In this document: in pieces, positions 3,417 to 37,895 of the stretch | Layout: the number at the start of each line of letters is the position of its first letter | Numbering within the stretch: the first letter of the stretch is position 1 | DNA from: Rhodopseudomonas boonkerdii | GTDB lineage: Bacteria; Pseudomonadota; Alphaproteobacteria; Rhizobiales; Xanthobacteraceae | Assembly: GCF_021184025.1 (NCBI RefSeq) | Contig: NZ_CP036537.1 | Coordinates: forward strand, 4,278,001 to 4,342,000 | Direction: 5' to 3' | DNA length: 64,000 bases | Position numbers and translations under genes: made by a program | Notes under the pieces: model-generated | Told to the model about the DNA's origin: nothing | The model's input: only the letters and a program-made list of their open reading frames with translations | Databases searched by the model: none

Positions 3417-4382
3417 TCAGGACAGCACAACGATGCCGGGCAATGCCGTGACTTTAGCGCCATAGGCTTCCCGGACCAGCGCGATCAGATCGTCCACGCG
3501 ATCGATCGGAATCCGTGCATCGACCGGACGCCGGCCCAGCGCCTCATTCATCAGCACGATGCGTCCGGTCCGATAGCGGTTGACCTCATCCACGACCTCG
3601 GCAAGCGGCATCTGCCGGAATACCAGTTGTCCGTCTCGCCACGCCATCACGACGGCCGGATCGACCGTCACGGGCGCGCCAACCGCACCATCGGCATAGG
3701 CAAGCTGCCGGCCAGCATCCAGTTCGATCGATAGTCCCGCATAGTCGATCGCAAGGGTTCCGCAATGACAGGTCACCACCGAACGGCCGGCATCGCATCG
3801 CAGATTGAACTGCGCGTCGGCGGCATGAACGAGGCCACCCGCCGCCCGCACCGTCAGCGCTCCCGTGTGCCGTGGCCACACCGATATGGCTGCCTCCCCC
3901 GCGATGAGTTCGACTTGGCGCTCGCCTGTCGTCTGGCTCACATTGAGGCTGCTGCGTGTGTTCAGCTCGATGCTGACGCCCTCGCCCACTGCGATTTCGC
4001 GGCGTTCGGCCGTACGGGTTCGATAGTCGGCCGCGAATTCGCGCGGCGACGGCCAGAGCTCCATGGGCGGGCGCGCCACCAGATAGCCGGCACCGGCGAC
4101 CGAGGCGGCGATCGCTCCGCCGAGGAACCAACGCCGCGATGGCCGGCTTTGTGGCGACGCACCGCTTGGCAAAGCCGGCGCCGCAGTCGGTCGCCGGGCT
4201 ACGTCATCGAGACGGTCCCACAGCAAATTCGCCTCGGCAAAAGCCCTGGCATGGGCGGGGCTGCGCTCGCACCACGCCCTTAGCGCCCGCGCATCCCCGG
4301 CGGTCGCGTCGCCTGAGGTCAGGCGCATGAGCCAGGCCCGCGCCTCGCCGTCCAGCGTGTCCGCCGCGCTTGCGTCCGTCAT
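3417..4382 (-). CDS. FecR-family anti-sigma factor / sigma regulator
   Basis: This 321-residue protein has the usual FecR layout. Residues ~12-58 form the cytoplasmic DUF4880-type region (EARAWLMRLTSGD, W..R). A single membrane segment lies at ~86-104 (RRWFLGGAIAASVAGAGYLV). The periplasmic FecR domain spans ~110-235 (EIAVGEGVSIELNTRSSL, VELIAGEAAISV), and the C-terminal STN-like/DUF4974 piece (AEVVDEVNRY) spans ~255-321. The start at 4382 is chosen because it lies 20 bp after the sigma-factor stop (4403-4405) with GAGAAAG before it; the frame extends further upstream inside the sigma gene. It should bind the preceding sigma factor in the cytoplasm and receive a periplasmic signal from the STN protein. 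Confidence 0.88.
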   Translation of the reverse strand: MTDASAADTLDGEARAWLMRLTSGDATAGDARALRAWCERSPAHARAFAEANLLWDRLDDVARRPTAAPALPSGASPQSRPSRRWFLGGAIAASVAGAGYLVARPPMELWPSPREFAADYRTRTAERREIAVGEGVSIELNTRSSLNVSQTTGERQVELIAGEAAISVWPRHTGALTVRAAGGLVHAADAQFNLRCDAGRSVVTCHCGTLAIDYAGLSIELDAGRQLAYADGAVGAPVTVDPAVVMAWRDGQLVFRQMPLAEVVDEVNRYRTGRIVLMNEALGRRPVDARIPIDRVDDLIALVREAYGAKVTALPGIVVLS

Positions 4383-6171: not shown

Positions 6172-6621
6172 TCACATTGTCATTAACGACGGCAGATCGA
6201 CAATCTGAATGAGACCGCCATCCGGGCCATTTCTTATCGCGATATCGCCGGCCGCCTCGCGAATGATTTCCGCGAAATTGTGAGACCAAGCCCAGCTCAG
6301 GGAACGTTCTGCGCACGAGCAGGATCGGCTCGGACAAACGGTTCCAATACCTGATCCAACAAGTCGGGCGCTACGCGAGGACCTTCGTCACTGATCGTGA
6401 TCTTTGCAGTTTTGCCTCCGGTTACGCGGACCGTACCGAATCCCCCTGCGCGTCGCTGCGTCGATGAGCAAATTTCGAAGTGCCCGTTTTAGCGCAACAC
6501 GACTTCCCATTACGACCGCATCGACGGTACCGGAAATCTGGATCTGAATTTCGGGGAACTCTCGGCTTTCGACACCCGATCTTCGGCCAAAGACTTTCCG
6601 GAATCTACGAAAGGCCGCCAA
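6172..6621 (-). pseudogene. Sensor histidine kinase ATPase-domain remnant
   Basis: Three frames read on the minus strand together spell a HATPase domain. The first gives the N-box-like ALRNLLIDAATRRG with its upstream strand. A second frame then gives TAKITISDEGPRVAPDLLDQ and FVRADPARAQNVP, followed by a stop. A third gives NFAEIIREAAGDIAIRNGPD and ends at 6172. At least two frameshifts (near 6440 and 6290) and a stop interrupt it, and the receiver, dimerisation and sensor parts are missing. It lies just outside the tRNA-Gln-like end at 6591-6685, so the far part may have been lost in the event that created that junction. Confidence 0.6.
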
Positions 6622-6685
6622 ATCGGGGGCCCTTCTCGGCTGGCAGGGCGGCCTCGACTAATGCCCCGACTGCCTGGCTGGGGCG
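6591..6685 (-). repeat. Degenerate copy of the tRNA-Gln 3' end and downstream terminator (putative island end)
   Basis: Bases 6675-6685 (TGGCTGGGGCG) are identical to the 3' acceptor strand plus discriminator and CCA of tRNA-Gln at 22428-22438. The match continues outward for ~85 bp at roughly 70% identity by eye (6591-6674 against 22345-22427), including an imperfect hairpin equivalent to the tRNA's terminator. Homology stops inside the tRNA. This is what an attachment-site copy left by integration into the tRNA 3' end would look like; the alternative is an old duplication of the tRNA region. Confidence 0.5.
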
Positions 6686-9002: not shown

Positions 9003-9989
9003 TTGGTAGCTGCGATAACCACCCCAGACGCGCGACATAGCCCCTCGCAGCGCCGCCTCGTCGTCTATGTGGCTCTGGCCGGCAATATCGCCGTCGCCAT
9101 CGTGAAACTGATCGCCGCCGTCGTCACCGGAAGTGCGGCCATGTTCAGCGAGGCCGTCCATTCGGCCGTCGATTGCGGCAACGAAGGCCTTCTGCTGTAC
9201 GGATATCATCGGGCGGCACGTCGGCCGGATCTCGTCCATCCATTCGGTTACGGAAGGGAGCTCTACTTCTGGAGCTTCATCGTCGCGCTTCTTCTTTTTG
9301 GTTTGGGCGCTGGGGTTTCTATCTATCAGGGCATCGCTCACGTTATCGCGCCGCAACCTATCGAAAACCCGTTAGTGAGCTACGTCGTTCTCGGTTTCTC
9401 CTTCGTGTTCGAAGGTTCCTCCTGGATCGTCGCGTGGCGAGCGGTGAAACGGGCACGAGGCGAGCTAAGTTTCTGGACCGCGTTTCGCCGCAGCAAGGAC
9501 CCGCCAACTTTCGTGGTGCTGTTCGAAGATAGCGCGGCGCTTATCGGAATTCTCATCGCCATTCTGGGAATCTTCGTGGCAATTGAGCTGGAGATGCCCG
9601 TACTCGATGGCGTCGCATCAATACTAATTGGCCTTGTCCTCGCCGTCATCGCCGTCCTTCTCGCCATCGAAAGCAAGAGCCTGCTTATCGGAGAACGGGC
9701 GTCCCCGGCGCTTGTCGAGACCATCTGCGCCATCGCCGAGAGGGAAGCCGGGGTTGTTCACGCAAATAGCGCCCTCACCGCACAGCTGTCGCCCGACCAG
9801 GCCGTCGTCGCGCTCAGCATCGAGTTCGAGCGTGACCTGCGGACCGACGACATAGAGCGATGCGTCGCATCTATCGAGAGGGCCGTCCGCGCTTCACATC
9901 CCGAAGTCATCGCCCTATTCGTTAAGCCGGAGAAAATCGTTGATTCTCGCGCTGCGAGCGAACGACGTTTCACGATCCTCTCCAAATAG
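9003..9989 (+). CDS. Cation diffusion facilitator (CDF) family exporter
   Basis: This 328-residue inner-membrane protein has the CDF pattern: helices starting VVYVALAGNIAVAIVKLIAA, the metal-site helix MFSEAVHSAVDCGNEGLLL (H..D), the loop HPFGYGRELYFWSFI, and a later helix with FEDSAALIGILIA. A cytoplasmic C-terminal domain covers ~240-315. It should export divalent metal (zinc, iron or manganese) in exchange for protons. The start is a TTG at 9003; a stop lies upstream in the other frame and no ATG fits better. Its place among stress genes suggests a metal-stress role, an inference. Confidence 0.82.
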   Translation: MVAAITTPDARHSPSQRRLVVYVALAGNIAVAIVKLIAAVVTGSAAMFSEAVHSAVDCGNEGLLLYGYHRAARRPDLVHPFGYGRELYFWSFIVALLLFGLGAGVSIYQGIAHVIAPQPIENPLVSYVVLGFSFVFEGSSWIVAWRAVKRARGELSFWTAFRRSKDPPTFVVLFEDSAALIGILIAILGIFVAIELEMPVLDGVASILIGLVLAVIAVLLAIESKSLLIGERASPALVETICAIAEREAGVVHANSALTAQLSPDQAVVALSIEFERDLRTDDIERCVASIERAVRASHPEVIALFVKPEKIVDSRAASERRFTILSK

Positions 9990-10153
9990 CGCGCCAGACC
10001 GCGAGACAAACTGTCGGCTTCGGATCGACAGATTGTCTCGTGAGGAGATACTTCGTCTCGCAACTACTTGAATTTGCTCGCCCCGCAATTTGGCATGACG
10101 ATTGCGTAGCCGGTTCCTCGACAAATCGTCGTCACCGAACGCGGGAGTTTTTC

Positions 10154-10777
10154 ATGACTGACGCCGGTAAGGCCCATTCTGCCGATGCCAATTCAAACGG
10201 ATCCCGCTCCGTAGGCGACGTCACAAAGAATGCTCGCGAGAAGTGGGCGTGGTTCGTAGCACTAGGAGCGCTAATGGTTCTACTAGGTGCCGTAGCAATG
10301 ATAAATTTAGCCGTGACCACAATCGCGACCGTAATCTATATCGGTGTCCTCATGCTGATTGGCGGCGCATTCCAGTGCGCACAGGCTTTCAAGATCAAGA
10401 CATGGTCCGGTTTCGGATGGTGGCTCTTAAGCGGTGCCCTATATGGAACTGCCGGCATTACCACAGTCGCTAATCCATTGCTTGCCTCCTACATCCTCAC
10501 CCTCATTCTTGCAGCCTTCACTCTCGCCGCCGGCATCTCTCGAATAATCGTCGGTCTGCGAACGAAGCCAAACGACGGGTGGACAATTCACGCGGCGTCG
10601 GGACTGATCACCACCGTGGTCGGTTTCATCTTCCTGCTCGGCTGGCCGGTAAATAGTCTGTGGCTATTGGGTCTGCTTTTGTCGGTAGACCTCTTGTTCC
10701 AGGGCTGCATGTGCCTCGCCTTCGGCATGCGCCTTAAATTGCCGCCGCATTCCGCTTTTCCCCCAGGAGCGACGTAA
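10154..10777 (+). CDS. HdeD-family membrane protein (acid-stress type)
   Basis: A 207-residue protein with a hydrophilic ~30-residue N-terminus and six evenly spaced hydrophobic helices (for example WFVALGALMVLLGAVAMI, VIYIGVLMLIGGAFQCAQAF, ILTLILAAFTLAAGISRI). This is the HdeD/DUF308 pattern. The ATG at 10154 follows GGGAG. HdeD proteins protect against acid and appear in transmissible protein-quality-control islands; a GrpE gene follows 94 bp downstream here. Molecular function is not established for the family. Confidence 0.75.
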   Translation: MTDAGKAHSADANSNGSRSVGDVTKNAREKWAWFVALGALMVLLGAVAMINLAVTTIATVIYIGVLMLIGGAFQCAQAFKIKTWSGFGWWLLSGALYGTAGITTVANPLLASYILTLILAAFTLAAGISRIIVGLRTKPNDGWTIHAASGLITTVVGFIFLLGWPVNSLWLLGLLLSVDLLFQGCMCLAFGMRLKLPPHSAFPPGAT

Positions 10778-10870
10778 GCACCCCAACCCGAATGGTTTGC
10801 CAACCGGTCGCGCGCGCGTCATAATTGACGCGCGGGCTCCGGTCGATCTTTGGAAGAGGACCTTCGCACA

Positions 10871-11473
10871 ATGAACAATAGACATGGCTATCCGAGCGAC
10901 CGTCGGTTCCCGTCGCAGCAGCAGCCCTCCGATTCCGGACGAGTCGTACCAAGCGAGCCCGCTGCGGAAATTACAGAAACTGAGGCTGCAGCGCTCCCTT
11001 CAACGGAGCAATTGCAGATGGACAACGCTGACTTGAAAGACAGACTGCTGCGGGCTTTGGCCGAGGTCGAGAACATGCGACGCCGCAGCGAGCGTGACGT
11101 TGCGGATGCGAGCAAATACGCGATCAGCAAGTTTGCGAAAGACATGATCGCAGTCGCGGACAACATGGAACGCGCCGTGGCCAGCGTTCCGCAGGCCGAA
11201 CGAGAACGGGACGCAAATGCGACGGCTGTCCTGCATGGCATCGAATTGACCGCCAAGGCGATGCGAGACGCTCTTGCGCGCAACGGGATCGAGAAACTCG
11301 AACCTGTGGGACATCGCTTCGATCCGAACTTTCACGAGGCGATGTTCGAGGTGGTCGATCCGTCGAAGCCGAATGGCACGGTCGCCGACGTGCTGGAACC
11401 CGGTTACTCGATCGGCTCCCGGCCTCTTCGACCCGCAAAAGTCGCAGTCACCCGAGACAAACCCCTTCAGTGA
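10871..11473 (+). CDS. grpE: GrpE nucleotide-exchange factor (accessory copy)
   Basis: This 200-residue protein has a disordered, Gln/Ser/Pro-rich head, a long coiled coil (~40-110, LLRALAEVENMRRRSERDV, YAISKFAKDMIAVADNMERA) and the beta-domain signature FDPNFHEAMFEVVDPSKPNG followed by VLEPGYSIGSRPLRPAKVAV. GrpE drives ADP release from DnaK. No dnaK or dnaJ lies next to it, and the gene sits in an accessory stretch with hdeD-like and sod genes. It is therefore probably a second, stress-island copy in addition to the housekeeping grpE, which would be elsewhere in the genome. Confidence 0.88.
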   Translation: MNNRHGYPSDRRFPSQQQPSDSGRVVPSEPAAEITETEAAALPSTEQLQMDNADLKDRLLRALAEVENMRRRSERDVADASKYAISKFAKDMIAVADNMERAVASVPQAERERDANATAVLHGIELTAKAMRDALARNGIEKLEPVGHRFDPNFHEAMFEVVDPSKPNGTVADVLEPGYSIGSRPLRPAKVAVTRDKPLQ

Positions 11474-11545
11474 TACGCATGAAACTGATTGTGCTGGTCG
11501 GGATATTGCCACTTCACAGTTCTTCCATCCACAATTCGCGAGAAT

Positions 11546-11716
11546 ATGATCATGACGAAGAAGTTCGATCCCGCTCCGAGAGACAAGCTTGCCGTCGATC
11601 CGAAGAAGGCCATGGAATTGGACGAAAAATTTAGCCAGCTTGAAAAAGGTCTGGAAGAGACTTTTCCGGCTTCAGACCCCGTCAGCGAGACGCAGCCCAA
11701 GCCCTCAAGATATTGA
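11546..11716 (+). CDS. Small hypothetical protein with LEETFPASDP motif
   Basis: A 56-residue charged protein starting at ATG 11546 (or ATG 11552), with GAGA shortly upstream. The C-terminal half carries EKGLEETFPASDPVSETQ, a motif I recognise from many short uncharacterised rhizobial proteins. No function is known. It follows grpE by 72 bp and may be in the same transcript. Confidence 0.55.
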   Translation: MIMTKKFDPAPRDKLAVDPKKAMELDEKFSQLEKGLEETFPASDPVSETQPKPSRY

Positions 11717-11775
11717 AGTCGACGTCCGCTGCTGCGCATCGCAACCCGTGCGTATATCGGCAGCATTGAATAGCC

Positions 11776-12258
11776 ATGCGGTACTATCTGGATGCGGAGT
11801 TCAACGGATTCGGGGGTGAACTTCTCGCGCTTGCGCTGGCACCCGAGGATCAGTCGTTGCCGGCCTTCTATCAGGCGATCACTTGCGCAAGTCCGACGCC
11901 GTGGGTACGCGAGCACGTCATCCCGGCTCTCGCTACCGTGCCGATTGCGCGGGAGCGAGTCGCCGAACTCTTCTTTCTCTACCTTCACAATGACGAGAAC
12001 CCGACGTTGATCTCAGATTGGCCCGAGGATATCGCCAATGTCGCGTGACTTCTCATCACTGGCCCGGGAAAGATGCTGCCGATACGGCGCCTCAGGTTCG
12101 AATTGGTCGATTCGGCGATCATCACGCCCTACGTTGCATCGGACATGCAGCATAATGCGCTTCGCGATGCGGAAGCCCTGCGCGCGACCGTCCTTGCTTA
12201 CGAGGAACGATCGCAGTGGGAAGCATTCGACCGCGCCCCGTACCACAGCTCACCTTGA
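11776..12258 (+). pseudogene. DEDDh-type 3'-5' exonuclease (Rv2179c-like), interrupted by an in-frame TGA
   Basis: One continuous frame of 160 codons is interrupted only by a TGA at 12046-12048. Before the stop it reads MRYYLDAEFNGFGGELLALA (the D.E pair of exonuclease motif I) and LISDWPEDIANVA (motif II Asp). After the stop the same frame continues LLITGPGKMLPIRRLRFELV and HNALRDAEALRATVLAYEE (motif III His and Asp). All catalytic residues are present across the stop, so a single CGA-to-TGA type change is the likely cause. The upstream 90-codon piece alone lacks motif III and should be inactive. Programmed readthrough is possible but unlikely. Confidence 0.7.
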
Positions 12259-14628: not shown

Positions 14629-15003
14629 ATGAAGCAGAAATCCGAACTGGGCAAAGCGCCCGCAGAACAAGTGCTAAAAGATATCCGGCGGCAGACGCGT
14701 CGGCAGTATTCGGCGGAAGAGAAGATCCGTATCGTGCTGGAAGGACTGCGCGGCGAGGAGAACATCTCCGAGCTGTGCCGCCGCGAAGGCATTGCCGCCT
14801 CGATGTATTACGGTTGGTCGAAGGAGTTTCTGGAGGCCGGCAAACGCCGCCTGGCGGGTGACACGGCCCGTTCCGCCACGTCCGGTGAGGTGAAAGACCT
14901 TCGCCGCGAAGCCTCCGAATTGAAGGAGGTGGTGGCCGACCTGACCCTGGAGAACCGCCTGCTCAAAAAAAGCATGAACGGGGCTGGGGAAAACGAGGCA
15001 TGA
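14629..15003 (+). CDS. IS3-family transposase OrfA (helix-turn-helix subunit)
   Basis: This 124-residue protein carries the IS3/IS911-type helix-turn-helix (YSAEEKIRIVLEGLRGEENI, SELCRREGIAASMYYGWSKE) and a C-terminal leucine-zipper-like coil (EASELKEVVADLTLENRLLK). A run of seven A at 14965-14971 near the 3' end is a plausible -1 slippage site. Slippage there would enter the orfB frame and give the OrfAB transposase usual for this family. Confidence 0.88.
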   Translation: MKQKSELGKAPAEQVLKDIRRQTRRQYSAEEKIRIVLEGLRGEENISELCRREGIAASMYYGWSKEFLEAGKRRLAGDTARSATSGEVKDLRREASELKEVVADLTLENRLLKKSMNGAGENEA

Positions 15004-15980
15004 GGTATCCAGCATCCGAGAAATCCGAAATAATCGCGCTGGTCGAGCAATCGCATCTGCCTGCCAGGCGCACGTTGGAAAAGCTCGGCATCCCGCGAGC
15101 CACCTTTTATAGATGGTACGATCGCTATCGCGAGGGTGGCATCGAGGCGCTGGCCGATCACCGCTCCAAGCCGGACCGGGTCTGGAATCGCATCCCGGAC
15201 GATGTCCGCGGTCAGATCGTCGATCTGGCACTGGAACACCCCGAGCTGTCGCCGCGAGAGCTGGCGGTGCGCTTCACCGACGAGAGAAAATACTTTGTCT
15301 CCGAGGCTTCGGTCTATCGGCTGCTGAAGGCGCACGACCTGATCACCAGCCCCGCCTATGTGGTGATCAAGGCGGCTAATGAGTTCAAGGACAAGACCAC
15401 GGCGATCAACCAGCTTTGGCAGACCGACTTCACCTACCTCAAGATCACTGGCTGGGGCTGGTACTATCTATCGACGGTGCTCGACGACTTCTCTCGTTAC
15501 ATTGTGGCCTGGAGGCTTGGTCCCACCATGTGCGCCTCCGACGTCACGGCCACGCTCGATCAGGCGCTTGCCGCCTCAGGCCTGGACCACGTCAATATAA
15601 AGCAGCGGCCACGGCTTCTGAGCGACAACGGATCAAGTTACGTCGCGGAAGATCTGGCCACCTGGCTCAAGGGCAAGGATATGCAGCATGTGCGCGGTGC
15701 GCCGTATCATCCCCAGACCCAAGGCAAGATCGAGCGCTGGCATCAGACCTTGAAGAACCGCATCCTGCTCGAGAATTACCATTTACCGAGGGACCTCGAA
15801 CGTCAGGTCAGCGGCTTCGTCGAACACTACAACCATCACCGCTATCATGAGAGCATCGACAACCTCACGCCTGCGGATGTTTACTTCGGCCGAGCCGAAA
15901 CCATCCTGACTGAGCGTGCGCGCATCAAACGTGAAACCATTGCAAACCGCCGCTTGCAGCATCGATTGCAAGCCGCTTAA
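15000..15980 (+). CDS. IS3-family transposase OrfB (DDE integrase catalytic subunit)
   Basis: This 326-residue protein is a complete IS3-type integrase. It has an N-terminal HTH_21-like part (RRTLEKLGIPRATFYRWYDR), then the rve core with the DDE residues in WQTDFTYLKITGWGWYYLST (first Asp), LLSDNGSSYVA (second Asp) and HPQTQGKIERWHQTLKNRI (Glu). The start ATG overlaps the orfA TGA as ATGA, in the -1 frame relative to orfA. Confidence 0.9.
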   Translation: MRYPASEKSEIIALVEQSHLPARRTLEKLGIPRATFYRWYDRYREGGIEALADHRSKPDRVWNRIPDDVRGQIVDLALEHPELSPRELAVRFTDERKYFVSEASVYRLLKAHDLITSPAYVVIKAANEFKDKTTAINQLWQTDFTYLKITGWGWYYLSTVLDDFSRYIVAWRLGPTMCASDVTATLDQALAASGLDHVNIKQRPRLLSDNGSSYVAEDLATWLKGKDMQHVRGAPYHPQTQGKIERWHQTLKNRILLENYHLPRDLERQVSGFVEHYNHHRYHESIDNLTPADVYFGRAETILTERARIKRETIANRRLQHRLQAA

Positions 15981-16035
15981 ACTTTAACCCTAGATGAGCC
16001 AGATCCTCCCTTCTCGAAATGCCTGAGCGGTCTCA

Positions 16036-16712
16036 AATTATCTGACGACGAACAGTGGGAGGGGCGGAAGCTCTGGGGCCATATGATCGTCGCGTGCAGA
16101 TCGATTGGCCGCCAGATTTCGCTTCTAGATCAAGTCGACAGAGATTTCATAATACGCTGTCTCTGTGCATTTTCCGGAGGGCTCGTCGCCCGCTTGCGCA
16201 ACAGGGACGAACGGGCTGCGATCAAACACTGGCTTGACGAAGACAACTTGACCAACTGCGATGACTGCAACGAAGTATTGAATCAGATCGGATTACGATG
16301 TCTCGCACTGATGCAGCAGGGCACTATCACTCCGATCCACTATTCTGTCATCGAAGGGCAGCTCACTTCGCTCTCCCGCGTCCAAGCGGGCTGCGAACGG
16401 ATTGTAAAGACGCCAGTCCCCTTCGCCTATTCGCTTCTCTTGCACAGAACTGCGCTCATCTTCTGTCTTACTCTTCCGTTCTCCCTAGCGGGCTCCCTGG
16501 ATTGGTGGACTTTTCTTCCAGTACTGCTCGTCGCCTACACGTTCTTCGGGCTGGATGCCTTGGGTCACGAACTCGAAGATCCATTCAGTTTGGAGCCCAA
16601 CGGCCTTCCGCTCGGCGCGATCCAGCGCACCATCGAGCGCGAGTTGCTTTCGCTACTCGGCAAGAACGAGCTCCCGGAACATATCGAACCGCACGATAGC
16701 GTCCTCCTGTAG
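16036..16712 (+). pseudogene. Bestrophin-family anion channel, 5' end removed by the IS3 element
   Basis: The frame begins straight after the IS right end (LSDDEQWEGRKLWGHMIVAC, the conserved RWWEGRKLWG-type segment of bestrophins) and continues for ~220 residues through two membrane segments (ALIFCLTLPFSLAGSLDWWT, LPVLLVAYTFFGLDALGHEL) to a stop at 16712. The Glu/Asp-rich GHELEDPFSLEPN motif of the family is present. The first ~60 residues, including the first membrane helix, are missing. A short frame could start at ATG 16083 but would lack the channel's N-terminus. Confidence 0.75.
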
Positions 16713-16745
16713 AGGCGCTCAAGCTTGCCTACAGACCATCTACAC

Positions 16746-17045
16746 TCACGGAGCCATCAAGGATAATCTCGACCGAGTAACCGCGTTCGGCTCGCGACAT
16801 CGCTCGACAAAGAGGTCGAATTGGTCATTCGCTCGTCCGGAATGGAGGAGCATCGTGCGGCCGTCAGGGCATAACGACGTTACCCCCGATGTTGCAACGA
16901 TTTGGTGCTTGCGCAGTTCAGCGCGCATCAGGGCGGCGCGGGTTTTCGTTTGCTCCTCCCGCGCGCGTATTTGGAAGTTGAAACGACAAAGATCGGAAGA
17001 AATTTTGATCAACAGCTGGTCAACCGCTCGGCTTAAATGCGTCAC
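16746..17045 (-). CDS. Hypothetical protein, doubtful
   Basis: A 99-codon frame between the truncated bestrophin gene and the IS1182-like element (start 17045, only ~15 bp from the element's edge). It has a helical first half (FQIRAREEQTKTRAALMRAE) and no recognised domain. If real it may itself be truncated by the element. Nothing else is seen in 16713-17059. Confidence 0.25.
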   Translation of the reverse strand: MTHLSRAVDQLLIKISSDLCRFNFQIRAREEQTKTRAALMRAELRKHQIVATSGVTSLCPDGRTMLLHSGRANDQFDLFVERCREPNAVTRSRLSLMAP

Positions 17046-17059
17046 GGAGGTCCGCTTTG

Positions 17060-18583
17060 CGCCGATTGTGTTGACGAAGTCGGCGAGTTGGCTTTTGGCC
17101 CGCGGAAAGGGATCGAGGGCGCAAGTGTCTATCCCGTTTCAGATGGGCATTGGAGCCGGTGCCGAGATCAGTTTTGCCAGCTTCCGAAGGTTCTGAGCAG
17201 TGGCGGCGAGCAAGAACTCGTCGCGAGCGCCGCATGGACCTCTCAGACGAAGCCGATCGAGGCGCAGAATGCGCTTCAGATGCGCGAACAACATCTCGAT
17301 CTTCTTGCGTTCGCGCCGCTAGGTTACATACGCCTCTGTCTTGGCAATCCCACGCGCTACGTCCCTGGCGCTCTCGTAGATCGAGCGCGGCACCTTGCGG
17401 GCTGGCATCTTCGGGCAACACCGCTGTTTGAGGTCGCAGATGTCTCGCAGTCGCGTTTGCTGGCGCGGTAGAGAAGCGTCGCTCCGTCATTCACCAGTGT
17501 CCCGGTTGAAGTCAGCACCTTGCCTGCCGGACAGCGATAGATGTCCGTCCTCGGATCGTAGGCAAAGTCGTCGCGGGCGAATGTCTCATCCTCGCGAGCC
17601 GACTTGTCGAACACAGGTATATGCGGCTCGATTCCACGCTGGTTGACCAACCAACCCAGCATGTCGGCTGATCCATACGCGCTGTCGGCAGCGAGGCGCT
17701 CGGGATGAATGCCAAAGCGCTCCTCCGTTCGCGCGATCATCGTCCGGGCCGCACCGACTTCAACTTGCCTGATGGCGCGCGTCGCCTCGACATCGACGAT
17801 CACCGCAGCCTTCAGATCGATCAGGTAGTTATCGGCGTAGGCAAAAAAGGCGTGGCCTTTGTGAGCTCCGGTCCATTGCGCAGCCGGATCGGATCGGGAG
17901 ACGAACTTCGGTACCGTCTCGCTTGCCGCGCCCCAGGCCGCTTCGTCCAGCGTCTCAAGGTATTCGCGGACAGACCGCTGCGTCCGGGCAAGCACTTCCC
18001 AGTCATGGCTGTCGGTGCCCGCAGCAGAACGCTGCTTATTGGCGTCGGCAGCGATCAGGCTGGCATCGACAGCGAAGGCCGTTCCATCGACCAGCCCCTC
18101 CGCCATGCAACGCCGCACAACCGTCTCGAACAACTTGCGCAGAAGATCGCAGTCGCGGAAGCGGCCGTGTCTGTTTTTTGAGAAAGTCGAGTGATCCGGC
18201 ACCTCGCCATCCAGCCCCAGACGGCAAAACCAGCGATAAGCGAGGTTCAAGTGAACCTCCTCGCACAACCGGCGCTCCGACCGGATGCCGTAACAGTAGC
18301 CGACCAGCAGCATCCGGACGAGCAGCTCAGGATCAATCCATGGCCGTCCAGTCGAACTGTAGAAGGGCGCCAAATCACGCCGAATGACTGACAGATCGAC
18401 GAACCGGTCGATGTTCCGCAGCATGTGAGCCGCTGGTACGTGTCGCTCCAGCGAGAATTCGTAGAACAGAGCCGCCTGATCAGTCTGCTGTGGACCCATC
18501 ATCGATTCAGCCTCCGCCGATATCGAGATTGAATCAGCGATGGCGCGCCGCTTCAACAGGGGACTTTTTCAACACAATCCGCC
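17060..18583 (-). mobile_element. Decayed IS1182-like insertion sequence
   Basis: The outer ends carry inverted repeats: GATTGTGTTGA.GAAGTC at 17063-17080 and its counterpart GACTTTTTCAACACAATC at 18563-18580. The interior encodes one minus-strand transposase that is broken (see the transposase entry). About 1.5 kb in total, which fits the family. Exact end bases are uncertain by a few positions. Confidence 0.65.
17139..18502 (-). pseudogene. IS1182-family transposase, frameshift plus stop
   Basis: From MMGPQQTDQAALFYEFSLER at 18502 the frame shows the N-terminal DUF772-type region (DPELLVRMLLVGYCYGIRSE) and the DDE core (GTAFAVDASLIAADANKQRS, ERLAADSAYGSADMLGWLVN). Near 17437-17442 the frame shifts, because the expected cysteine-rich CDLKQRCCPKMPARKVPRS lies in the next frame. 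That frame then holds a TAG at 17319-17321 before the conserved RRERKKIEMLFAHLKRIL (catalytic Glu region), ending at 17139. The element cannot move by itself. Confidence 0.75.
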
Positions 18584-18949: not shown

Positions 18950-19585
18950 ATGAAGCGCCGAAACCAATCACCTTCCAAGCAATTCACGGATTCCATCGAG
19001 GAATACTACGCAACAAAAATCCTGAAAGCGCTGGGTATGACAGACGACCAGCTTTCACAGTGCCGCTTTCTGCCCAAGCATATGGATACGCGATTTGACC
19101 GCTGGGCATTTACTTGGGCCGCCAACCTGCCTAGCGCTATAGAGCAAAATGCTATTCCTTTTCTAAAGCCTTATTTGACTTATCGGTGGGTCACGCAAGA
19201 TGCTCCGCCAGAGCATCATAGCATTGCCGATGCATGGGAAGAACTCTCGCAGCTTGCGGCGGAGTCCACCATTCAAATGGGCCTCCGATGGAGATCAGCT
19301 CAGCAGAAAAACAGCAGAAGATCGCGCAAACGCCATTATATCTCATCTCTTAAGATGACGATGGCCCAATTTGTGGATCGGTTCTCGCGAGAAATCGAAG
19401 TTCCTCAGCTGTCATACGCAGACGCTTGGGTCCGCTTTTATGCGTATCTCGAAACGAAAGATCTGGACCCCAAAGAAGTAGATGGACATTATGAATACTT
19501 TGCAAGTTTAGATGATCGCGCAGTGCTTAAGTTTGCGACTTTCAAACGCTACTTGCTTATCGCTCGCAAGGCGGCGCGCAGATAG
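18950..19585 (+). CDS. Orphan protein of unknown function upstream of the methylase-HsdS fusion
   Basis: A 211-residue basic protein with an excellent GGAAGGAG site 8 bp before the ATG. It is mostly predicted helical with several aromatic residues (MKRRNQSPSKQFTDSIEEYY, WVRFYAYLETKDLDPKEVDG) and a basic patch (KNSRRSRKRHYISSLK), which could bind nucleic acid. No domain is recognised. It ends 74 bp before the fusion gene on the same strand, so the two may form one unit. Codon use is less GC-biased than in the flanking core genes, consistent with transfer. Confidence 0.65.
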   Translation: MKRRNQSPSKQFTDSIEEYYATKILKALGMTDDQLSQCRFLPKHMDTRFDRWAFTWAANLPSAIEQNAIPFLKPYLTYRWVTQDAPPEHHSIADAWEELSQLAAESTIQMGLRWRSAQQKNSRRSRKRHYISSLKMTMAQFVDRFSREIEVPQLSYADAWVRFYAYLETKDLDPKEVDGHYEYFASLDDRAVLKFATFKRYLLIARKAARR

Positions 19586-19659
19586 CCCGGCAATTTGAAT
19601 GGCTGCTTTTACGCTCCGAACTCTTGGCTGCCCCACGGCAGTCGTTCAATGGAGTTCAC

Positions 19660-21840
19660 ATGCAAACAGAGCGGCTAAATCACATTGTCACCGACATAGA
19701 GGCAATCGAGCGACTGCCCATCGGCAGCATTAAAACGAGTCGATCGTTTCGGATTTTTAGGAAGGAAACCGTACGCAAAGCAGCCCGATTCCTTGAGGAG
19801 TTCGGTCTTCGCCTGCCCATTGTTTTGGATGCCAAGGATGAGATCGTGGAGGGTGAGATCTGGTTTCACGCAGCCAAACACCTGGAATTGACCGACGTCC
19901 CGATTGTTCGGGTTGGCGGCCTCACGCCTCATCAATTAAATGCCTATCGCATCGGCATTCAGCGTATCCCGCAATCCGCCCAGTGGGACGACGCGGCTCT
20001 TGCCGACGTCTTCAAGCACTGGACCGTCGAAGATATTACCTTTGATATCGAGTTGACCGGCTTTTCGGCCGCTGAGATTGACATACTGATCGAAACCAGC
20101 GACGCCAAGGTCAAAGCTCCGACAACGACAGACATCACGACAGCCGATGCCGGCGCCCGCATCTCACGATTGGGTGACCTCTGGCTTGCGGGTGACCACC
20201 GTATCCTCTGCGGCAACTCCTTAGAGAGCGACTCGTTTAAGATACTTCTCGGCAGCGAGACGGCATCCGTCGTCAGAACCGATCCTCCTTACAACGTCGC
20301 AGTTCAAGGCCACGTTGGAGGAAAAGGAAAGCTAAAGCACCGCGAATTCGCGATGGCATCCGGGGAGATGAAAGGAGCTCAATTTACTGAGTTCTTACTC
20401 GGTGCATTTAGGCAGTTGGCAGCTGCTAGTGCTGACGGGTCGATCCATTACATCTTCATGGACTGGCGTCACGCGCAGGAACTTCTCGCGGCCGGTAGCT
20501 CCATCTATAGTGAGCTCAAGAATGTCGTGGTCTGGGTAAAGGCCAACGGAGGCATGGGCTCATTCTACAGGTCACGGCACGAGTTCGTATTCGTCTACAA
20601 GAAGGGCAAGAGCAAGCAACGCAATAATGTCGAGCTCGGTAAACACGGGCGTAACCGCACCAACGTGTGGGAGTATGCAGGAGCCAACGGATTTGATGGT
20701 CGTCATACCCTCTCGGGGCTAGATGTCGGCAGCAAGCGCCTTTTTGAGATTCACAATGGGGATCTTCTGTTCAACATAGTTTTTGCTTGGGAAGGTGCGA
20801 TTGCCGTTCCGGGTGAGAAGGATCATCTGCGCGTCGGATCACACCGCTTTTTGACATTTGTTCCAGAAGTGGAGCAAGCAACTGCGAAATTCCTTCGCTT
20901 TTATCTTTTAAGTGCTGAGGGGTTAGAGAAGGTCGGCAATGCCTCTCCGGGCGGCGCGGGCCGAAACCGAACTTTGGGCATCGCGAAGGCAGAGGCAATC
21001 ACAGTTCCAGTCCCAAAGATTCACGAACAGAGGAAGTTTGACCAACTTTGTGAGTATATTCGTGAGATTCGCGAAATCCGCGCTGCAACGGCAAAAGATG
21101 CGGAAGCGCTGATCCCGGCGATGCTTCACGACATATTCGAGCGCAATGCCAAAACCGTTCGTGCAGACAACGGTATCAACGTCACTCTACTTCGAGAAAA
21201 ACAGTCCGCCGCTATCGGTGTCCCCCACGAAGAGGCTGTGCTCGTGGCGGCCGTGATTCAAGCTTTCCATGAAGATGGTGGTCAGCCCTTGGGAAATTTC
21301 CGACTCCAAAAGGCTGTGTACTTCGCACGCCGCTTTTTGGGTGATCGCGAACTTGACAGGCAGTACCTACGGAAAGCTGCCGGACCTTACAATCCGTCGC
21401 TGCGTTACTCTGGTGGAATGAAGGTCGCTTTGGAGAGAAATTGGATCAAGACTGCTACTGGCAAGTTCGGTCCCGGGCATTCGCCCGGTACAGCTCGCGA
21501 TGATGCAAACGCATGGATTAAGAAGCTCGATTTTTGTAGAGCTGCTTCATGGGTGCGCGACAGATTTAAGTTCAAGCACAACGATATTTGGGAGCTTTTG
21601 GCGACAGTTGATTACGCAATGCTTGCGCTTGTGCGTAGCGGAAAAGCCGCAACAGCCACGAACGTCTTGTCTTTCATCAGCAACGACAACGAGTGGCGTC
21701 CGAAAGTGGAAAAGCTAAAGCTCTCGGAAGCATCTATCCAAAACGCGATAGTCGAGCTCCAGAGTTTGTTTGTCGATCCGGTGAATTCGAAAACATCGAA
21801 GGCGGCATCAAAGAAGGCTGGACTACGCTTGTCGAAATAA
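19660..21840 (+). CDS. Chimeric ParB-like / DNA methylase N-terminus fused to an HsdS-like specificity C-terminus
   Basis: A single 726-residue frame. Residues ~15-120 resemble the ParB-like domain of ParB-methylase proteins, but the G.GR motif is degenerate (VEGEIWFHAAKHLELTDVPI). Residues ~168-345 are a beta-type N4/N6 methylase with the catalytic DPPY at 208-211 (VVRTDPPYNV), HYIFMDWRHAQELLAAG and HGRNRTNVWEYAG. In this family the next part should be HPTVKP and the SAM-binding D.F.GSGTT; both are absent. Instead, from ~350 the chain reads as the second half of a type I specificity subunit (NGDLLFNIVFAWEGAIAVPG, GAGRNRTLGIAKAEAITVPV, IHEQRKFD, coiled coil to ~498). It ends with the module often found at HsdS C-termini (FRLQKAVYFARRFLG, YLRKAAGPYNPSLRY). 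Start ATG 19660 has GGAG upstream. Probably an in-frame deletion hybrid lacking methylase activity; an intact hybrid function cannot be excluded. Confidence 0.8.
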   Translation: MQTERLNHIVTDIEAIERLPIGSIKTSRSFRIFRKETVRKAARFLEEFGLRLPIVLDAKDEIVEGEIWFHAAKHLELTDVPIVRVGGLTPHQLNAYRIGIQRIPQSAQWDDAALADVFKHWTVEDITFDIELTGFSAAEIDILIETSDAKVKAPTTTDITTADAGARISRLGDLWLAGDHRILCGNSLESDSFKILLGSETASVVRTDPPYNVAVQGHVGGKGKLKHREFAMASGEMKGAQFTEFLLGAFRQLAAASADGSIHYIFMDWRHAQELLAAGSSIYSELKNVVVWVKANGGMGSFYRSRHEFVFVYKKGKSKQRNNVELGKHGRNRTNVWEYAGANGFDGRHTLSGLDVGSKRLFEIHNGDLLFNIVFAWEGAIAVPGEKDHLRVGSHRFLTFVPEVEQATAKFLRFYLLSAEGLEKVGNASPGGAGRNRTLGIAKAEAITVPVPKIHEQRKFDQLCEYIREIREIRAATAKDAEALIPAMLHDIFERNAKTVRADNGINVTLLREKQSAAIGVPHEEAVLVAAVIQAFHEDGGQPLGNFRLQKAVYFARRFLGDRELDRQYLRKAAGPYNPSLRYSGGMKVALERNWIKTATGKFGPGHSPGTARDDANAWIKKLDFCRAASWVRDRFKFKHNDIWELLATVDYAMLALVRSGKAATATNVLSFISNDNEWRPKVEKLKLSEASIQNAIVELQSLFVDPVNSKTSKAASKKAGLRLSK

Positions 21841-22361
21841 CGGCTCGTTGCCAATCAAAGGCGGTGCCACGGCGAAGCGAACAACCAACAAATAACCAAC
21901 GATATAGGCAAACCAACGCTTCGCAAACGTTTCCAAAATTAACCCGGATCGTTGATTTTATACGCTTTTACCCGAATTCGAGGCGTCCTTTCCCCGCTCA
22001 TAACGGCCTGCTCGCGGGTCGCATCTATAGAGAGAGCCAAGCGCTTCGGGTGCTTCTCGATTGTGACCGTGGATACGCGAATTGCTCCCAATTGGTGCCG
22101 TCGCGCCTCCTCCCTGGAGTGCGCCAAAGCCAAGCACCTTGATCGGGCGGCAGTCCGGGAAGCGAGATTCCCAACCCCTCGCATTCAGACCCAGAAAATA
22201 GTCGGCGACCGAGTGCCAGGATTAGGCCGCATTGGTGATCGAACCGGGTCTCCAACCGCAAACTCCCAAAAATGGTAATTTCCAAACTGTCGGCCAGAGA
22301 CTTTCGGGATTTTGGCGGTGTACGGGGTCGGTTGCGCCAGCCGGAGACTTTCCAGAGTGCG
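21841..22361. other. Non-coding or decayed stretch between the fusion gene and tRNA-Gln
   Basis: About 520 bp with only short frames and no recognisable product or good ribosome site. This is where an island integrase would normally sit next to the tRNA, but none is seen. It contains the right copy of the 16-bp direct repeat (22135-22150). Confidence 0.4.
22135..22150 (+). repeat. 16-bp direct repeat, right copy
   Basis: CACCTTGATCGGGCGG, 15 of 16 bases identical to 18885-18900 in the same orientation. See the left copy for interpretation. Confidence 0.35.
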
Positions 22362-22391
22362 CGAAAGCCCGCCGAATGCGGGCCTTTCTCG
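22362..22391 (-). terminator. Terminator of tRNA-Gln
   Basis: A GCCCGC/GCGGGC stem with a 5-base loop (22367-22383) followed on the minus strand by TTTCG, 45 bp after the 3' end of tRNA-Gln. An imperfect homologous hairpin lies in the copy near 6610. Confidence 0.6.
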
Positions 22392-22427
22392 GCAAATCGG
22401 GCAGCTTGGTCGAATGCCCGTACTGCG

Positions 22428-22502
22428 TGGCTGGGGCGGGAGGGGTCGAACCTCCGCATGGGGGAATCAAAATCCCCTGCCTTACCACTTGGCTACGCCC
22501 CA
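22428..22502 (-). tRNA. tRNA-Gln (anticodon TTG)
   Basis: A 75-nt cloverleaf: 7-bp acceptor TGGGGCG/CGCCCCA, D arm GCC..GGC, anticodon stem GGGGA/TCCCC with loop TTTTGAT (anticodon TTG), T arm with GGTTCGACCC, discriminator G and an encoded CCA. It is intact. Its last 11 bases are repeated at 6675-6685, which makes it the probable integration site of the accessory region to its left. Confidence 0.93.
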
Positions 22503-36766: not shown

Positions 36767-36895
36767 TGTCCCGGATGCAGCGCGTCGCACTTGCGACGTG
36801 ATGCGCTGCTGATCCGGAACCGTAGCGGACTGCAGAGTTCGTGACGGTCCTGGCTCTGCGGAGCAGCGCAAGAACGCGGCACCGCATCCGGGACA
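36767..36895. repeat. Palindromic element between tctC and tctB
   Basis: A 129-bp stretch bounded by TGTCCCGGATGC (36767-36778) and its exact complement GCATCCGGGACA (36884-36895), with further pairing inside. Similar TCCCGGATGC-bounded elements are frequent intergenic repeats in this family of genomes. As RNA it would fold into a long hairpin between two genes of one operon. Confidence 0.65.
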
Positions 36896-36902
36896 AGGAG
36901 GA

Positions 36903-37895
36903 CTATTTCTTCCCGAGCCCGATGCTCTCGATCACCTTGCGCTCCGAATTGGTCACCTCCACCACAAACTTCTTGTAGTCTTCGGTGTTCTTGTAGTTCG
37001 GCACCATGTCATATTTCGCCAGCGTCGCGACCACTGCCGGATCCTCGATGGCCTTCTTGAAGGCGTCGTGCAGCTTGGCGACGATCTTCGGATCCATCCC
37101 CTTCGGGCCGGCGATACCGAATGGTGAGTCATACACCATCGGGTAGCCGCTCTCCTTCAGTGTCGGCGCATCCGGGAAATTCGGCGAGCGCTTGTCGGTC
37201 CACACCATCAGGAGCCGCAGCTTGCCGGCATCGACCAGCGGCCGCCAGCCAGTGGAATCGGCCTGCAGCATGGTGTGATTGCCGAGCACGGCGGCGTTCG
37301 TCTCGGCACCGCCCTTGAACGGCACCTGCGTCAGCTTGATGCCGGCCATGGCCGCGATCTGCTCCATACCCACATGCAGCGAAGTGCCGGTGCCAGGCGT
37401 CGCATAGGTCACCTTGCCGGGATTGGCCTTGGCGAAATCCACCACGTCCTTCCAGGTTTTGAACTGCGATTCCGCATTGGTGGTGATGCCGAAAGTATAG
37501 CCGGTGAGGTGAATGATATAGGAGAAATCCTTGTCCGGATTCCACGACACCTCCTGCATCAGGGGCAGACGGAATACCGTGATCGGAATCTGCGAGATCG
37601 TATAGCCGTCCGGCTTCGCGGCCGCCGCCATGGTCGCAGGGCCGACCGTACCGCCGCCCCCGGCCTTGTTGTCGATGGCGATGGGCTGGCCAAGATGCTT
37701 CGAGGCCGCATCGGCAATCGCGCGCATCGAGATATCGGTGGAGCCGCCCGCCGGCCAGGGCACGATCAAGGTGATCGGCTTTGTCGGATATTCCTGCGCG
37801 CGGACAATGGTCGTCGTGCCAAGCGTGGCAATCGCGGCAGCCCCCAAGGCGCATGAAAAGGCGAATGAAAACGCGAAACAATTGCGCTGCAGCAT
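36903..37895 (-). CDS. tctC: Tripartite tricarboxylate transporter receptor TctC (Bug family)
   Basis: A 330-residue periplasmic binding protein with a signal peptide ending near IVRAQEYP. It shows the Bug-family pattern: YPTKPITLIVPWPAGGSTDI, the IDNKAGGGGTVGPATMA loop and VTYATPGTGTSLHVGMEQIA. It captures a carboxylate (citrate, benzoate or similar) for TctAB. First gene of the transporter operon. Confidence 0.92.
   Translation of the reverse strand: MLQRNCFAFSFAFSCALGAAAIATLGTTTIVRAQEYPTKPITLIVPWPAGGSTDISMRAIADAASKHLGQPIAIDNKAGGGGTVGPATMAAAAKPDGYTISQIPITVFRLPLMQEVSWNPDKDFSYIIHLTGYTFGITTNAESQFKTWKDVVDFAKANPGKVTYATPGTGTSLHVGMEQIAAMAGIKLTQVPFKGGAETNAAVLGNHTMLQADSTGWRPLVDAGKLRLLMVWTDKRSPNFPDAPTLKESGYPMVYDSPFGIAGPKGMDPKIVAKLHDAFKKAIEDPAVVATLAKYDMVPNYKNTEDYKKFVVEVTNSERKVIESIGLGKK

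Follow-up and report, generated by a model that had tools for sequence, protein, structure and literature searches.

Several described systems combine, or separately contain, the parts of the gene analyzed here, a single open reading frame in a 64-kb stretch of DNA (the window). Type IIG enzymes carry a methylase followed by a specificity unit in one chain. The gene has the same order, as do the fusions of a Type I methylase to its specificity subunit (M-S fusions), but its methylase is a cut beta-class enzyme of another family and is followed by a cut target domain. In contrast, the active EcoKI M-S fusion (PMC3510504) and the active HsdM-half-HsdS fusions (PMC6158711) have a complete HsdM as the methylase. 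The ParB-type orphan DNA methylases (PHROG 498; PADLOC MTase_II PDLC03229) resemble the gene in their ParB-like start and DPPY motif; however, the gene is without motifs X and I and the remaining methylase. From the Type I HsdS proteins with a C-terminal extra module (PADLOC Specificity_I PDLC03141), it keeps part of target domain 2, the long helix, and the tail, but not target domain 1, the central region, or about 40 residues of domain 2, and neither HsdM nor HsdR was found in its genome.

The original prediction was that a methylase front and an HsdS back lie here in one frame. We confirmed this: a ParB-type DNA methylase front, 72% identical to the protein P0003, and a Type I HsdS back, 73% identical to the protein P0002, are joined in a frame that is open throughout, and the combination is real. 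We consider it most probable (about 0.87) that the gene is a private chimera, made by either a deletion or a join of two elements in a tRNA-Gln island, and that it is probably dead. This reading is directly supported by homology that covers one half only, by the two cut domains, by the lack of detected Type I partners, and by the island setting. The features of the gene are as follows.

19660..21840, plus strand: chimeric ORF of 726 codons, an open frame from the ATG at 19660 to the stop at 21840.
19660..20706, plus strand: front, the first 349 residues of a ParB-type beta-class DNA methylase, from the 72% identity to P0003 (Tardiphaga, locus L033).
19705..19908, plus strand: ParB_N-like domain, residues 16-83 (Pfam E 0.0013, below the cut-off; best Foldseek matches ParB/Noc).
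20269..20682, plus strand: first half of the N6_N4_Mtase domain (Pfam profile positions 3-132 of 221).
20707..20709, plus strand: the joint, Thr350 codon ACC, a Thr codon in frame in both parent families.
20707..21018, plus strand: remnant of HsdS target-recognition domain 2 without its first ~40 residues (alignment to HsdS; model of P0002).
21019..21153, plus strand: second conserved region of HsdS, a long helix, residues 454-498 (HsdS alignment and AlphaFold model).
21223..21777, plus strand: C-terminal module of the HsdS subfamily, residues 522-706 (HsdS alignment; weak match to the DarG C-terminal profile).

The sequence GGAG lies directly 5' of the ATG, and an alternative upstream start, TTG at 19624, would extend the frame to 738 codons.

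The front is collinear with P0003 (467 residues), its nearest relative among the matches listed, and the 72% identity applies to fusion residues 1 to 353 as aligned. The ParB-like domain that belongs to a beta-class ParB-type methylase is present, with ParB/Noc proteins as the best Foldseek matches; DNA methylases came next in the Foldseek results, which also included 5ybb_D, the chain of a Type I S subunit, at E 4.1e-3. The N6_N4_Mtase domain of the fusion stops at profile position 132 of 221, and that of P0003 runs from 3 to 220. As originally described, DPPY (motif IV) is kept, at 20281-20292, and the SAM-binding GSG part is gone at the joint. A regular-expression scan found neither HPTxKP nor DxFxGSGxT in the fusion, and the same expressions matched 100/102 and 91/102 front relatives, respectively. 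We take these two to be motif X and motif I, which together form the AdoMet site.

The back half, fusion residues ~348 to 706, is collinear with HsdS proteins, and P0002 (595 residues) is the nearest among the matches listed. The long helix of the second conserved region is present, and the tail module stands as predicted. However, the claim of an HsdS-like target-recognition domain overlooked that this domain is itself truncated. A Type I HsdS has two whole target-recognition domains and a central conserved region; of these, the fusion keeps only part of domain 2, having lost target domain 1, the central conserved region, and ~40 residues of domain 2. The lost part of domain 2 corresponds to strands 194-197, 219-222, and 229-231 in the AlphaFold model of intact P0002, and a block of the YPELGVRSF type that is kept in 37 of the 42 long back relatives is lost in the fusion. 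We did not count the missing Pfam Methylase_S match of the fusion as a sign of truncation, since that profile covers only target domain 1 in intact P0002. The tail module is genuine and a feature of this HsdS subfamily.

Two observations concern HsdS proteins more widely. The C-terminal module (fusion residues 522 to 706) also occurs with different target domains, as in a 732-codon HsdS at 9678-11876 of locus L163, and two profiles match it weakly, one for a Type I methylase (E 1.8e-4) and the other the PADLOC DarG profile, at the C-terminal end of that profile (E 3.7e-6, positions 163-326 of 329). Defence proteins may share it as an accessory module. The HsdS proteins P0121 and P0122 each have two target domains of like type (52%/52% and 50%/48% identity to the remnant in the fusion), and this pairing suggests near-palindromic targets.

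To map the joint, we aligned the fusion by local BLAST to the 179 other proteins that two protein searches listed. The front alignments end at residue 353 in 73/102 cases, and the back alignments, from 76 proteins, start at residue 348 in 72/106. At this place, R-N-T in the L033 methylase and K-P-T-L in the HsdS family share one frame, so that a few bases around the ACC codon may be common to both break points. The earlier estimate of 20690-20705 was near, with the actual joint a few bases downstream. Both domains are severed inside their folds. In the AlphaFold model of the fusion, the pLDDT is about 30 at the joint, with blocks of 27 to 36 over residues 321 to 360, and ~65 over the target-domain remnant (residues 351 to 440), versus 89 for the matching stretch of intact P0002. 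Confidence is high for the ParB-like part (mean pLDDT 88) and for the tail module (mean 89). The model is supportive only, as its mean pLDDT is 74, its pTM is 0.39, and its alignment mixes two unrelated families.

We searched for the same joint in other proteins and genomes. The search with the whole protein gave 7776 matches, with the best 120 listed and only the 7998 candidates sharing most words scored; the search with residues 290 to 430, across the joint, gave 1228 matches, again with the best 120 listed. Among the protein matches listed, only the window's own protein (P0001) spans the joint. The 179 other proteins divide into 102 that cover the front, 76 that cover the back, and P0167, which covers only residues 274 to 353; none covers both halves. 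Eleven local alignments cross residues 335 to 365, one in the methylase P0176 and ten in HsdS-type proteins. P0176 was rejected as a spanning relative since its own motif X/I tail is aligned by chance, and the HsdS-type protein P0163 was also rejected as aligned across the joint by chance. The nine further alignments, weak or internal to HsdS, were judged by coordinates and names only.

Matches, including that of the source genome, were obtained in 116/397 genomes of an order sample, 128/391 of a family sample, and 71/385 of a class sample; the samples overlap, and at most two candidates were scored per genome. Among the matches listed for these samples, only those of the source genome span the joint, apart from one in G790 (residues 17 to 391), which was rejected as a complete methylase with HPTVKP and a GSG motif. 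The named genome contigs gave 74 loci, and viral contigs gave 17. In the 145 loci with a match, four alignments besides that of the gene itself cross the joint. Those in L045, L062, and L106 are ordinary HsdS proteins aligned across their own target-domain start; that in L035 (24% identity, E 4e-4) was judged by coordinates and names, and its locus holds an ordinary HsdS. A plasmid record of the locus was not found; the only hits were two Rhizobium records with 66.8% identity over 6% of the query. Among the open-access papers listed, no title or start of an abstract describes such a methylase-HsdS fusion, with subscription journals mostly outside this scope. The sequences searched thus do not support a recurrent new architecture with the same joint in independent genomes.

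The original prediction had offered a second reading, a genuine new architecture in which an inactive methylase-fold DNA reader is fused to a specificity unit. With its ParB-like domain, such a protein would act in DNA binding or regulation. The 726-codon open frame, the small number of changes at conserved sites, and the confident models of the ParB-like part and tail module speak for it. However, no second example appeared among the listed matches of the protein searches or of the three genome samples, nor was the joint found in the loci, and both DNA-contacting domains are cut inside the fold, with very low model confidence at the joint. In addition, the fusion has an arginine (R206) directly before TDPPY, a residue found there in 0/47 other rows (38 Ile, 6 Val, 2 Phe, and 1 Met). 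We therefore regard a genuine architecture as highly unlikely.

A joint confined to one genome would also be expected if two separate genes had been wrongly joined in the contig. However, the genome is a single 5.63-Mb contig that is 99.97% complete, the fusion is the single match to the protein in it, and no second copy of either half was found that could have misled the assembly. An assembly artefact is accordingly very improbable.

We additionally compared the two halves with their relatives at conserved sites. At columns at least 90% conserved, the front differs at 3/108 (rank 10 of 48) and the back at 12/168 (rank 6 of 43), and the back ranks 3 for radical changes at its 90%-conserved columns. 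At columns 97% conserved, the differences are 1/77 (rank 4) in the front and 5/112 (rank 3) in the back. The rows were the 47/102 front and 42/106 back alignments that passed length and identity filters, a biased set of best-scoring matches. By these ranks, conserved-site changes appear mildly raised, and decay is not clear. Such a pattern agrees with a recent joint or with weak constraint and is no indication of selection for the fusion. The long open frame had been taken to argue against fast decay, and this argument proved weak because a recent in-frame joint, a chance of ~1 in 3, inherits two open halves.

A Type I HsdS is expected to have cognate HsdM and HsdR proteins in the same genome, and these were not found here. 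The Methylase_S and HSDR_N profiles, which found their families in 9/14 control genomes, had no match in the complete 5.63-Mb genome; the fusion itself has no Methylase_S match either. A relative of the L042 HsdM was not found in the complete genome, in a search that had no positive control. The L042 HsdR matched one stretch only, over its residues 299 to 556 (25% identical, E 3.7e-4). The only two N6_Mtase matches (38.6 and 24.8 bits) are in frames of 739 and 1107 codons near 5.36 Mb, and these genes seem unlike HsdM partners. The statement that the window contains no hsdM or hsdR also held: tblastn of the window with HsdR, HsdM, and HsdS of L042 and L162, and with the methylase tail, gave no convincing remnant elsewhere in it. 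The methylase tail gave one weak hit, at 3834-4088 (E 0.031), and the start of HsdS another, at 36826-36930 (E 0.05); both were taken as chance. The fusion also differs from functional methylase-specificity fusions in having neither a complete methylase nor a complete target domain. Judged from its sequence, methylation or restriction by the fusion is very unlikely because the AdoMet site, a complete target domain, and the partners are missing.

Activity of the half-HsdS in trans with an HsdM was considered as well. Engineered half-HsdS proteins and HsdM-half-HsdS fusions dimerise and methylate, according to PMC6158711. However, the construct names in PMC6158711 indicate that the engineered forms carry target domain 1, and the only target domain left in the fusion is without ~40 residues. 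In the genome, no relative of the L042 HsdM was found in the search without a positive control, and the only N6_Mtase matches are the two described above. We consider such activity exceedingly improbable.

The fusion locus adjoins a tRNA-Gln gene that is an island insertion site in the genus, with the following features.

22428..22502, minus strand: tRNA-Gln(ttg), the island insertion site.
22143..22475, no strand assigned: conserved island-end segment beside and into tRNA-Gln, matching island ends in the genus.

In G540 and G608, the tRNA end and the common end segment are separated by other DNA, and sequence comparison indicates that islands enter at tRNA-Gln(ttg) in several genomes of the genus. 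The closest methylase has a similar setting. In locus L033, a Tardiphaga MAG contig that belongs to genome G622 of the same genus, the full methylase occupies 10001-11404 and ends ~9.5 kb from tRNA-Gln(ttg), which lies at 20864-20938. The tRNA stretch is 80% identical to that of the window, and this kinship suggests that the window is itself from Tardiphaga.

These data bear on how the two halves came together. Most simply, a single deletion would have started from an island with a ParB-type orphan methylase, followed by hsdR-hsdM-hsdS further toward the tRNA gene on the same strand. Everything between a point within the methylase gene and a point within hsdS would then have been lost, which accounts precisely for the absent parts; by the gene lengths in L042, one such deletion would have taken out ~5 kb or more. 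Its two ends may have had a few bases in common around the ACC codon, where the two frames coincide, so that the hsdS tail could be transcribed and translated from the methylase start. The resulting protein would combine the ParB-like domain with one half of a methylase fold that has no AdoMet site and one half of an HsdS that has neither target domain 1 nor HsdM/HsdR partners, and it most likely would methylate and restrict nothing. In all four loci inspected (L042, L162, L163, and L045), hsdR, hsdM, and hsdS are codirectional with hsdS last; the R and M labels are from PADLOC for L042 and from a reading of the sequences for the others.

An intact methylase and an intact HsdS of these kinds, side by side in the needed order, were found in none of the loci or genomes searched. 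L049, L061, and L116 hold both kinds of gene on opposite strands, about 5, 9, and 9 kb apart, respectively (L061 and L116 give equal scores and may be one sequence). Both kinds also occur in G118 (opposite strand, ~21 kb) and in G384 (same strand, hsdS first, ~21 kb). The methylases of the loci with both kinds are distant, with 26 to 30% identity over the front. Because no genome was found with the methylase and HsdS adjacent in the needed order, the simple deletion is an inference; so are the former presence of hsdR and hsdM at the locus and the loss of function. The original suggestion of a deletion scar that kept the frame is nevertheless favored by the one-half homologues, the two cut domains, and the full methylase of the same genus near the same tRNA-Gln. 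A private deletion had been expected to leave homologues that cover one half only and relatives with both genes intact at this place; the former were found, but not the latter.

The same dead chimera could instead have arisen by illegitimate recombination between two separate elements. In favor of this route, no locus was found that has the two genes intact and in the order required. Within the genus, G622 has the closest methylase, and a different genome, G564, has a related hsdS that lies ~1.1 Mb away from its tRNA-Gln region. In addition, GC3 differs somewhat between the front (0.63) and the back (0.54). However, a deletion requires one event, both halves share a G+C content (0.54 in the front and 0.52 in the back) lower than that of the 64-kb window (0.61), and hsdS is last in the operon at the inspected loci, which is the position needed for a deletion. 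We consider a two-element join unlikely, if well above the other alternatives in probability, and it is included in the figure given for the private chimera.

As a private chimera by either route, the gene illustrates cleanly that a convincing fusion ORF can result when a defence island undergoes a deletion or an illegitimate join. It also calls for caution in annotation, as the fusion could be filed as a DNA methylase (PF01555 above the cut-off) or as an S subunit, and it is complete as neither. There is a very small chance that it is instead a very young chimeric gene that may be expressed, in which the ParB-like DNA-clamp part and the HsdS tail act as a binding or dominant-negative factor. 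This case would illustrate that DNA-reader fusions can arise by deletion between neighbouring defence genes, and a functional product would show restriction-enzyme evolution by fusion in a raw, natural form.

The surroundings of the locus showed further features. In contig C205 of G608, a 48-base tRNA-end core occurs three times, suggesting that islands lie there in tandem. In the window, 95 bases at 6591-6685 are 76% identical to 22345-22438 beside tRNA-Gln and are possibly the far end of an old island. Directly upstream of the fusion, at 18950-19585, lies an almost orphan ORF of 211 codons; only two proteins at E <= 0.001 were found among 77 candidates, one being the ORF itself and the other a protein of 131 residues with 73% identity over 54% of the query. 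It was rejected as a partner, being a near-orphan with no significant similarity (best E 5.7) to the 246-codon gene ahead of the L033 methylase. Farther upstream, at 15000-18556, two transposase genes, of IS481/IS3 type and DUF772/DDE, and a bestrophin gene that is missing ~88 profile positions at its start are signs of an eroding region.
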